Shown piece after piece: positions 57,130 to 60,054 of a DNA stretch of 64,000 nt. A model generated the notes under the pieces. It had not been told where the DNA came from. It did not search any database and saw nothing but the letters and a program-made list of their open reading frames with translations. The position numbers were made by a program, and so were the translations under genes. The DNA is from Methanoculleus bourgensis MS2 (GTDB taxonomy: Archaea > Halobacteriota > Methanomicrobia > Methanomicrobiales > Methanoculleaceae): NCBI RefSeq assembly GCF_000304355.2, contig NC_018227.2:2542001-2606000 (forward strand), given 5' to 3'. Within the stretch, counting starts at the first letter, position 1. Every line of letters begins with the position of its first letter.

Positions 57130-57245
57130 AGAGTCCGGACGGTGCTAGGGTCCATGCAATCCGGGGATAGGGAGATCTCATTCAAACGTCAGAACCGATA
57201 TGTCGTGAATATCTAGTTTTAGCACAAAAAGAAGCGGTTAACGAG

Positions 57246-57307
57246 GGGCTCGGGGCGATTCGAACGCCCGGTCTTCGCCGTGTGAAGGCGACGTCATAAC
57301 CAGTTAG
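57246..57307 (-). pseudogene. 5'-truncated tRNA-Val (CAC)
   Basis: On the minus strand this holds part of the D loop (CTAACTGGTTATGAC), a full anticodon arm CGCC-TTCACAC-GGCG with anticodon CAC, a T arm GGGCG-TTCGAAT-CGCCC and the 3' acceptor strand CGAGCCC. The matching 5' acceptor strand GGGCTCG and 5' D stem are missing; their place is taken by AAATGATACA from the adjoining repeat. The discriminator base would be C instead of the expected A. It cannot make a functional tRNA. Confidence 0.8.
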
Positions 57308-57500
57308 TGTATCATTTCATCTAATATTGTCCATGCAATACCATCTCACGCGAAGGGCGCGAAGCCGCGAAGTTCGGTTGCTGGGCGGCATAGTCCCCTT
57401 CGCGTTCTCACGCGTGCTTCCGCATGAGGTGGCGATCGCTCACCCCGCATCAGGACCCGCACCATAAGGTGAAACGGTCCACTAGTGGTCTTTGTCATCT
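57308..57500 (+). repeat. CGCGAAG dispersed repeat family, copy 3
   Basis: It starts at the tRNA breakpoint with CATCTAATATTGTCCATGCA, then CTCACGCGAAGGGCGCGAAG, and closes with AGGTGAAACGGTCCACT near 57467-57483. The first part matches the 19.4-kb copy and the last part the 31.9-kb copy. Confidence 0.7.
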
Positions 57501-57569: not shown

Positions 57570-57962
57570 CTACCTCCCCTCCCTCCGCGACGGGCACCCC
57601 TCACTGAACCCGCAGGTCGCGTGACACGTCTTTGCGGGGAGGTTGTCCCTCTTCTCGGCCCAGCGCACCAGCGGAACGATCGCTTCGCAGAGCTGGCGCC
57701 CGTCCTCAGTCAGCGAGTATTCCACCCGGGGCGGGATCTCGGGGAACGCCTCCCGCTGGATCAGCCCTTCCCTCTGCAGTTCCTTCAGGGTGTCGGTGAG
57801 AGACTTCGGGCTGATCCCGCCGAGGATCTCCATGATGTCGTTGAACCGCAGCCGCTCGTGATGGCCGAGGATGCTGATGATCAGGATGGCCCATTTCTTC
57901 GCTATCGTGGTGATGATCCCCTCAAGGGGGCAGAGGCAGATCCGGTCGCTATCCTTCTCCAT
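57570..57962 (-). CDS. Cys-rich HxlR-family transcriptional regulator
   Basis: A 130-residue winged-helix HxlR protein: CPLEGIITTIAKKWAILIIS, FNDIMEILGGISPKSLTDTLKELQREGLI and VEYSLTEDGRQL. It has an N-terminal Cys pair (ICLCP) and a C-terminal cluster (TCHATCGFSEGCPS). Three to five Cys at both ends suggest metal or redox sensing. The start is the ATG at 57962 (a GTG six bases earlier is also in frame), without a ribosome site. It is divergent from a tiny Cys/His-rich gene across an AT-rich, palindrome-bearing spacer, so it may regulate both. Confidence 0.85.
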   Translation of the reverse strand: MEKDSDRICLCPLEGIITTIAKKWAILIISILGHHERLRFNDIMEILGGISPKSLTDTLKELQREGLIQREAFPEIPPRVEYSLTEDGRQLCEAIVPLVRWAEKRDNLPAKTCHATCGFSEGCPSRREGR

Positions 57963-57974
57963 AGTCACTACATT

Positions 57975-58030
57975 ACTATATACTTTGTATTATTAATACT
58001 ATCCAAACTATTGTGATAGTGTATACAAAG
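57975..58030. promoter_or_regulatory. Divergent promoter with inverted repeats
   Basis: ACTATATACTTTGTAT (57975-57990) and TAGTGTATACAAAG (58017-58030) are imperfect inverted partners. Between them lies GTATTATTAATAC (57987-57999), a near-palindrome. The block is AT-rich in a GC-rich genome and sits between the HxlR gene and the small Cys/His-rich gene. It fits an HxlR operator overlapping both TATA boxes. Confidence 0.55.
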
Positions 58031-58048
58031 CGAAGGAGGTGAATGTCG

Positions 58049-58222
58049 ATGTGTACACCGGTTCATCACCAGGGCTGCTCGTGTCATCACGGTTCCTGTG
58101 GATGCATGCAGTCCCTCACGATTGAGGAGGAGATCGCGATGCTGGAAGCCCAAAAGAAGCGGATGCAGGTCATGATCGATATGACAGACCGAAGGATCGA
58201 GAGCCTGAAGAAGAGGGCCTGA
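58049..58222 (+). CDS. 57-residue Cys/His-rich protein with coiled-coil tail
   Basis: A small gene too short for usual cut-offs. It begins MCTPVHHQGCSCHHGSCGCM (first 20 residues), with five Cys and four His, then a helical, highly charged tail (EEEIAMLEAQKKRMQVMID and DRRIESLKKRA). GGAGGTGA lies six bases before the ATG, an ideal archaeal ribosome site. An ATG two codons upstream is also in frame but too close to that site. The pattern suggests metal binding plus self-association. It is divergent from the Cys-rich HxlR regulator, its likely controller. Confidence 0.7.
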   Translation: MCTPVHHQGCSCHHGSCGCMQSLTIEEEIAMLEAQKKRMQVMIDMTDRRIESLKKRA

Positions 58223-58338
58223 ACGATTCGTTCTTTTTTCGTGGGCGGGTCTGGTCCTCCGCTCCGGCACCCGTGTCCACCCTCACAACCACCGGACCGA
58301 AGCAACTATGAATACTCCCCACCAAAATGCGAGTATCC

Positions 58339-58632
58339 ATGCAATCCCGGGAAGAGATCGTTGCGACCCTGCAGCGCCTCAAGGATGACATCGCCGCACG
58401 GTTTTCGGTCAGCCGGATCGGTACCTTCGGCTCTGTCGCTCGCGGTGAGCAGACCGAGGCAAGCGACATCGACATCCTCGTCGAGTTCTCCCGGCTGGTC
58501 GGGTTCTTCGCCTTCCTCGAGCTCGAAGAGTACCTCTCACTGCATCTCGGCGCTCCCGTCGACCTGGTGACTCCCGATGCCCTCAAACCCGCCATACGGG
58601 AGCGGGTGGCCGCCGAGGTCGCCTATGCCTGA
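58339..58632 (+). CDS. MNT-type nucleotidyltransferase (MntA-like), solitary
   Basis: A 97-residue minimal nucleotidyltransferase. The active site is IGTFGSVARGEQTEASDIDILVEF, giving GSxARG and SDxD (shown in two parts: GSVARGEQ and SDIDILV). MNT proteins usually pair with a HEPN ribonuclease, forming a toxin-antitoxin system in which MNT AMPylates HEPN. Here the next gene is a convergent ATPase and no HEPN frame is found, so the module is incomplete or acts elsewhere. The start ATG at 58339 (MQSREEIV) is favoured over an ATG four codons earlier. Confidence 0.82.
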   Translation: MQSREEIVATLQRLKDDIAARFSVSRIGTFGSVARGEQTEASDIDILVEFSRLVGFFAFLELEEYLSLHLGAPVDLVTPDALKPAIRERVAAEVAYA

Positions 58633-58673: not shown

Positions 58674-59972
58674 TCACACCGCCCCGAGCAGCCACTTCCA
58701 GAGCGGGACGCACCTGATACCCTCGACCTCCCCTGCCGTATCCTTCGTGATGAGCACAAGGTCCCTCACCCTATCGCCGAACGCCCCGGCAAATTCCCGG
58801 AGGGCGTCCGTCTCCCGCTCCGGGAGGGCGTCGGTGTATGAGACATTAATCGCGGCCAGGGTGTTGTCAGGGTTGTTCAGGACAAAATCCACCTCCCCCT
58901 CTCCCTTCCAGTAGTAGGGTTCAAACCCGCGTCGCTTCAGTTCGAGGAACACCAGGTTCTCAACACGCTTCCCCTCATCCGCCGAGAAGTTGAACGAAAC
59001 GGCGTTTCTGAGCCCGTTGTCGATGCAGTAGATCTTTTTGTTGTTCCGGGCCTGGGTCTTCAGAGAATAACTGAAGTACCGGACCTCGAAGAGAACCTTT
59101 GCCATCTCAGCATACCGGATGTACTCCCTGATCGTAACTGCATCGATTCCCAGCACCTGCTCCAGCTGTCGGTAGGAATACGGTGAGGCGATGTTTGTCA
59201 GGAGATACGCCAGGAGATCGCTCATCGCCCGCTGGTTGCGCACCTCGTTCACCTGGACAATGTCGCGGTAGACGATGCTATCGTAGTATGCCTTAAGGAG
59301 GTCTTTTCTGACCATCGCGTCGGTCTGCCGCACAACCTGCGGAAAACCGCCTTCGCTCAGGTACTGCCTGAGCATCTGCATAAGGATATACTTCCGATCA
59401 GCCAGCGTGATGGGGTCGGTTGCAACCTCCACCCCGTTGAAGAGGAGATACTCGTTGAAATCGAGCGGGTAGACCGGGATCGCCAGGTATCTCCCGCTGA
59501 TCAGCGTCGATAACTCCGAGTCGAGGAGATAGGAGGAAGACCCGGATATCACCAGCCTGAACTGTTTCCGGTCGTATACCGATTTGATCCAGCGTTCCCA
59601 TCCCGGGATGTTCTGGATCTCATCAAAGACCAGGAAGGCTCCTTCTTCGCCGCAGACCTCTTTGCGGTAGGTCTCAAGGACCGTCTCGAGCGGCCGGTCA
59701 AGCCTTGCTATCTCCGGCTCGTCACAGTTGACGAAGAGGACCTTCCTCGGCTCGACGCCCTGGCCGTGGATCAGGTCGTCAACAACCTGGTAGAGCAGGG
59801 TGGTCTTGCCTGACCGTCGCACGCCGCTCAGGACCACGATCTCCCCGGAGGCGAGGTACCTCTTGATCTTTGAAAAATAGCGTTCCCGACGCACGCCGGT
59901 CGCGAAGTCCCTGCCGCTCCACCAGGGATTGAGTGATACCAGGAGTTCAAGAAGATCGGTCATACTCTTCAT
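58674..59972 (-). CDS. AAA ATPase with DUF4143 domain
   Basis: About 432 residues. The AAA_14 part has Walker A SGVRRSGKTTLLYQ and Walker B AFLVFDEIQNIPGW; the DUF4143 part spans about 215-400 and includes KIYCIDNGLRNAVS and LELKRRGFEPYYWKGEGEVDFV, a nuclease-like core with E-V-D. The family is widespread in archaea with unknown function. Several starts (59963, 59972, 59990) are possible; TATA spacing and inverted repeats covering the frame's beginning at 60020 favour a start at 59963-59972. Confidence 0.8.
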   Translation of the reverse strand: MKSMTDLLELLVSLNPWWSGRDFATGVRRERYFSKIKRYLASGEIVVLSGVRRSGKTTLLYQVVDDLIHGQGVEPRKVLFVNCDEPEIARLDRPLETVLETYRKEVCGEEGAFLVFDEIQNIPGWERWIKSVYDRKQFRLVISGSSSYLLDSELSTLISGRYLAIPVYPLDFNEYLLFNGVEVATDPITLADRKYILMQMLRQYLSEGGFPQVVRQTDAMVRKDLLKAYYDSIVYRDIVQVNEVRNQRAMSDLLAYLLTNIASPYSYRQLEQVLGIDAVTIREYIRYAEMAKVLFEVRYFSYSLKTQARNNKKIYCIDNGLRNAVSFNFSADEGKRVENLVFLELKRRGFEPYYWKGEGEVDFVLNNPDNTLAAINVSYTDALPERETDALREFAGAFGDRVRDLVLITKDTAGEVEGIRCVPLWKWLLGAV

Positions 59973-60000
59973 GTGGGTATAACCAGCCATAAATGTATGT

Positions 60001-60054
60001 TTTTGAGTGGTTATAATCACTCAAAAATTCTAATGTTCATGGGGTTATAACCCC
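60001..60054. promoter_or_regulatory. Two inverted repeats between DUF4143 ATPase and endonuclease Q genes
   Basis: TTTTGAGTG (60001-60009) and CACTCAAAA (60018-60026) are perfect 9-base arms around GTTATAAT. GGGGTTATAACCCC (60041-60054) is a perfect 14-base palindrome. Both centre on TTATAA, a TATA-like word, in the divergent spacer. They look like paired operators. Confidence 0.6.

Follow-up and report, generated by a model that had tools for sequence, protein, structure and literature searches.

A divergent HxlR regulator and a Cys/His-rich small protein of Methanoculleus bourgensis, proposed as half of an efflux module in methanogens

Thiol sensors of the HxlR/DUF24 family such as YodB, HypR/YybR and QsrR have an N-terminal CP sensing cysteine, an ACTAT/ATAGT-type inverted repeat with a 7-bp spacer and a divergent target gene. 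YodB of Bacillus subtilis has the operator TACT-N7-AGTA and forms Cys6-Cys101′ disulfides across the dimer (PMC8063818). The locus described here, an HxlR gene head to head with a gene for a short Cys/His-rich protein, shares the CP cysteine, the repeat type, the divergent target gene and the fold family. It differs in being archaeal, in having tandem operators 23 bp apart, in conserving a doubled N-terminal CxC and a C-terminal CxxxC as a set, and in that the target is not an azoreductase gene but the small Cys/His protein together with, in relatives, an ABC-2 exporter.

The usual cargo of DrrA-type exporters is organic compounds or lipids. In relatives of the pair the exporter ATPase scores above the drrA cut-off (TIGR01188) and the permease belongs to ABC2_membrane (PF01061), as in DrrAB; the operon, however, opens with the small Cys/His coiled-coil protein or a cupin, and the permease is far below the drrB cut-off. 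Small proteins of the DUF5320 family (PF17253) end in a similar helix, EEEI..LE..K..L...L..I..RI..LKK. The C-terminal end of this model is matched only by distant relatives in the phylum that have similar helices, one of those tested exceeding the cut-off, whereas the protein of M. bourgensis, with its Cys/His-rich head, gave no match at E up to 1. Finally, Methanosarcina mazei contains MtrI, likewise a small Cys-containing methanogen protein, which has an oxygen-related role and binds the Mtr complex in an oxygen-dependent manner (PMC12774963); MtrI differs in being a 68-residue protein of four helices and a zinc-ribbon encoded by a stand-alone gene. In the literature searched, on HxlR in methanogens, in Methanosarcina and in connection with metals, on DUF5320 and on how M. 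bourgensis is regulated, the module is not described, and the small-protein family has until now been undescribed and unannotated.

The pair lies in the window, by which we mean the whole 64,000-nucleotide stretch analysed, from the closed 2.79 Mb chromosome of M. bourgensis MS2. Its features are (window positions):

57570..57962, minus strand: HxlR/DUF24-family winged-helix regulator of 130 residues (PF01638, four invariant Cys, alignment with HypR)
57975..57991, unstranded: predicted operator O1, ACTATATACTTTGTATT, a conserved motif reading ACTAT-N7-ATAGT with two mismatches
Overlapped by O1: TATA-like CTATATAC, putatively that of the small gene
57990..57999, minus strand: TATA-like element GTATTAATAA, putatively that of the HxlR gene
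57998..58014, unstranded: predicted operator O2, ACTATCCAAACTATTGT, one mismatch, starting 23 bp after O1
58035..58042, plus strand: Shine-Dalgarno sequence GGAGGTGA, 6 nt before ATG 58049
58049..58222, plus strand: small Cys/His-rich protein of 57 residues with a C-terminal coiled-coil helix at residues 25-56 (conservation, dN/dS, structure prediction, heptads)

The first-pass annotation, made from the sequence alone, had seen an HxlR regulator with Cys clusters at both ends, and both points hold. The regulator matches PF01638 with an E value of 2.5e-24 (85.4 bits; curated cut-off 20.8), while its scores of 64 and 60 bits with the RrpA/RrpB models of NCBIfam (NF047367/NF047364) are below the cut-offs of 185 and 175. 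Translation likely starts at ATG 57962 rather than at GTG 57968, because this Met is conserved in at least 90% of the relatives and the upstream start is absent in several of them. In the resulting 130-residue numbering the clusters are C9xC11P near the N-terminus and C113xxxC117 near the C-terminus (C11/C13 and C115/C119 in the 132-residue numbering from GTG). All four cysteines are invariant in 20 of 20 pair-linked relatives and are among 37 invariant columns of the alignment. C11 (C13 in the longer form) is the conserved N-terminal CP cysteine of the DUF24 thiol sensors of the YodB/HypR type and aligns with residue 14 of HypR (4a5m). The CxC/CxxxC set is a candidate four-Cys sensor with a putative thiol-switch function. 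An AlphaFold model of the regulator, calculated from an alignment of two rows, was of low quality, with a mean pLDDT of 53, and no conclusion was drawn from it. A four-Cys HxlR is not confined to loci with the small protein, as was at first considered: CxC and CxxxC are also found in the HxlR proteins of two loci with a cupin instead (L195, L196).

For the short gene an ideal ribosome site, five Cys and four His within the first 20 residues and a coiled-coil tail had been claimed. The counts are correct, GGAGGTGA stands 6 nt before the ATG, and this sequence or a variant of it occupies the same place at most pair loci; a start at ATG 58043 (59 residues) was discarded since the ribosome site abuts that codon. 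Structure prediction gives the helix 25-56 a pLDDT above 90 and leaves the head disordered, and the hydrophobic residues of the helix fit a 4-3 heptad pattern. Both the Cys/His-rich head and the coiled-coil helix of 32 residues are retained in homologues; across the small proteins the heads contain 17% Cys and 8% His and the helix part 0.1% Cys. Comparison of the window gene with two Methanoculleus relatives gave dN of 0.022 and 0.074 and dS of 0.17 and 0.41, hence dN/dS of about 0.13-0.18. The small gene is under purifying selection, and on conservation and dN/dS a chance open reading frame was rejected. By composition the protein is a candidate metallothionein-like protein or metallochaperone, which would bind metal through Cys and His. 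The spacing of Cys and His varies so widely among homologues that no defined metal site can be named. A search of the PDB with the small-protein profile returned only chance matches to coiled coils.

A search of a collection of genome contigs with the small protein found only two close relatives, and the distribution was therefore drawn from a survey of 232 Methanomicrobiales genomes, searched with the single sequence and then with a 25-row profile. The small gene was found in 32 of these genomes at 34 loci (a match in G161, sitting inside a 638-residue frame, was dismissed as spurious). Lack of conservation of the frame in relatives had been named beforehand as what would speak against a genuine unit; given this distribution the reading stands. 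At 27 of the 34 loci the small gene has an intact HxlR gene as its head-to-head neighbour, and outside the order two further pairs occur (L113 in G248, L117 in G461). At three loci an intact HxlR gene is lacking: it is truncated in L083 and absent in L087 and L103. In L083 (G075) the small gene has remained intact and the paired operators are lost. In the second copy in G126 (L085) the small gene is interrupted by stop codons within its Cys head, with the HxlR gene, operators and exporter intact. In G159 a second paralogue of the small gene (L093, 5849-6076) has no HxlR gene of its own and is followed by an open reading frame of 246 residues; a frame of the same size after the small gene of L092 encodes a 4Fe-4S protein.

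The spacer between the two genes (57963-58034) has a GC content of 26% versus 59% for the window, and it contains, as the first-pass annotation had read from its letters, paired inverted repeats. Aligned spacers have a common block of about 57 bp with the consensus CATAGTnACTnnnnTACTATAAACTTnnTAnTATTAATACTnTCCAAnngATaGTAAT. In 28 loci ACTAT-N7-ATAGT occurs 8, 32 and 49 times at no more than 0, 1 and 2 mismatches, compared with 0, 0.34 and 4.15 times in dinucleotide shuffles, which ignore the relatedness of the loci, the motif having been discovered on the same set of 28 spacers. The operators are supported independently by three findings. The diverged loci L183 and L185 have two copies exactly 23 bp apart (positions 59 and 82) with other sequence in between; outside the order, G248 has copies at the same 23-bp spacing and G461 has kept O1 without mismatch; and the paired operator is absent in all three loci without an intact HxlR gene (in L087 a decayed form of the promoter is still readable). 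The M. bourgensis genome has a single match to the longer pattern ACTATNNACTTNNTANTATTAATACTNTCC, and controls have none. At the sequence level the window has a predicted inverted-repeat operator in a divergent promoter, as do the DUF24 sensors. O1 would overlap the TATA box of the small gene, and O2 would lie near its transcription start, which was placed from the TATA-like element. The TATA-like element of the HxlR gene has a core, TTAATACT, conserved over 28 loci; the HxlR transcript would have a leader of only a few nucleotides.

When neighbouring genes were clustered, an ABC ATPase of 305-309 residues and then a permease of about 250 residues proved to be frequent after the small gene. 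This order is found at 18 of the 34 loci in Methanomicrobiales (G126 twice, G006, G143, G176, G111, G194, G186, G156, G011, G177, G152, G178, G191, G179, G153, G148 and G195), all of them with a divergent HxlR gene except G186, and at several loci the small gene and the ATPase gene overlap by 4 bp (ATGA). Outside the order it recurs with HxlR in G248 and G461 and, with an ArsR-family regulator instead, in G480. Because the exporter genes directly follow the small gene at 18 of 34 loci, we propose that the unit is probably an exporter operon under HxlR control, with the gene of a small metal- or thiol-binding protein in first place. Its parts can be exchanged. A Cupin_2 protein stands in for the small protein between HxlR and exporter in L187-L189, L195 and L196, while L183-L185 and L197 have other short Cys-rich proteins in the slot of the small gene. 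Among distant relatives of the small protein, L116 is preceded by an ArsR-family regulator, and L119 is preceded by a PadR-like sequence (read by eye) and adjoins a P-type ATPase with two heavy-metal (HMA) domains; what these relatives with metal-linked neighbours have in common with the small protein is mainly the helix and the abundance of Cys and His. Regulator and accessory protein thus vary around a constant exporter, which speaks for a role in export rather than in regulation only.

In M. bourgensis itself the pair stands alone, with no exporter genes adjacent to it in the window. The nearest exporter homologue of this genome is located at 1.5148 Mb, about 1.08 Mb from the pair, downstream of purE, and the operator is absent there. 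In the sister genome G078 about 5 kb separate the same purE-exporter block from the pair, and five other genomes have the pair close to purE. In the HxlR tree the window groups with G078 and next with G126 and G110, which are from other families; the cupin-linked HxlR proteins of other Methanoculleus are separate. Since the operon is still complete in the tree neighbour G126, it is simpler to assume that the window pair has lost an exporter once adjacent to it.

Several features adjoin the pair. At 57240-57307 on the minus strand lies a tRNA-Val-like relic (anticodon region read by eye) with three copies, 81-85% alike, elsewhere in the genome; ARAGORN called no tRNA in the window. It is possibly an old integration scar. 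A 26-bp interspersed repeat around ATTGTCCATGCAATACC (57305-57330) has about 39 further matches in the genome. At 58327-58632 an open reading frame encodes an MntA-like nucleotidyltransferase (NF047752, 44 bits, under the cut-off of 60); immediately downstream there was no sign of a HEPN partner gene, and what follows, on the opposite strand, is the gene of an AAA/DUF4143 ATPase (58674-60020).

The first-pass annotation had taken the pair for a small metal or redox response unit. The regulatory part of this claim is well supported by the pair, the four cysteines, the operators and the joint loss of operator and regulator. What could not be seen from the window is that at about half of the related loci the unit also takes in a DrrA/ABC-2 exporter; the pair is then likely to be less a two-gene response unit than the portion of an efflux operon that supplies regulation and an accessory protein. 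On balance we favour the view that the window pair represents one half, regulator plus accessory protein, of an efflux module under HxlR control in methanogens. What is seen directly is the conserved pair, its cysteines, operators that are lost jointly with HxlR, and an operon-like order of ABC genes in relatives. In the mechanism that we infer, an HxlR dimer on the tandem operators O1 and O2 would repress, rather than activate, the small gene and its own gene. Engagement of CxC and CxxxC by a soft metal ion or by some thiol-reactive compound, comparable to that of Cys6 and Cys101′ across the dimer of YodB, might shift the DNA-binding helices and so lift repression. The small protein, with flexible Cys/His heads on a coiled-coil oligomer, may then capture this metal or compound within the cytosol and, at exporter-linked loci, hand it to the co-transcribed DrrA/ABC-2 exporter or act beside it. 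In Methanoculleus, where exporter genes are no longer adjacent, it could serve as a buffer or as the partner of an unlinked exporter. Only tentatively do we go further, to a hitherto undescribed methanogen system in which a small oligomeric Cys/His protein, controlled by a four-Cys HxlR sensor, would deliver a soft metal, or a complex of thiol and metal, to a DrrA/ABC-2 exporter.

Against an efflux module speak the lone pair of M. bourgensis and the missing operator at 1.51 Mb, the organic compounds or lipids that DrrA-type exporters usually carry, and, for metals, the variable Cys/His spacing and the restriction of metal-linked neighbours to distant relatives. The main rival is a redox or electrophile unit without metal. 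HxlR would here be a YodB/HypR-like switch that responds to oxygen, disulfide or quinone-like stress, the small protein would serve as a redox partner or as a pool of sacrificial thiols, and adducts or damaged lipids would be cleared by the exporter. The second Cys of CxCP aligns with the sensing Cys of HypR (and, by alignment offset, of YodB), the operator is like the YodB site, methanogens are strict anaerobes, and in some Methanoculleus relatives a cupin fills the operon slot of the small protein. Many homologue heads, however, are rich in His as well as in Cys and thus better suited to metal binding, and the distant relatives beside the HMA P-type ATPase (L119) and behind the ArsR-family regulator (L116) point the same way; we regard this rival as unlikely.

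That the pair stands alone in Methanoculleus and in many other genomes of the order would also agree with a stress-induced regulatory protein that, like MtrI, has no part in transport and whose helix binds a large enzyme complex in order to protect or inhibit it. Given the operon-like exporter arrangement at about half of the loci and the different layout of the four-helix MtrI, such a role appears distinctly improbable. An ordinary auto-regulated HxlR, beside which the short frame would be a fortuitously conserved leader or spacer peptide, could explain why the small gene is short and its head variable in sequence. This explanation, already disfavoured by the low dN/dS and by the conservation of helix and Cys over more than 30 genomes, is hardly credible, since the small gene is intact where HxlR is broken or absent (L083, L087) and present where there is no exporter.

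HxlR regulators and ABC-2 exporters are known kinds of protein; new is the proposed HxlR-controlled ABC-2 efflux module, which includes an undescribed family of small proteins. This link is hidden in the window copy, because the exporter genes are not beside it. The family is now joined to a regulator, an operator and a probable transporter, so that its function becomes directly testable, and the loci that have lost operator and regulator together offer a natural test of the regulatory link. The proposed handing over of cargo, if true, would mean that a metallochaperone feeds an ABC-2 exporter and that an HxlR protein senses metal. Knowledge of thiol sensing in methanogens would grow if an HxlR of these strict anaerobes sensed metal or redox state through a four-thiol site. 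Together the pair and the exporter suggest an unrecognised system for the disposal of a toxic metal or thiol-reactive compound.
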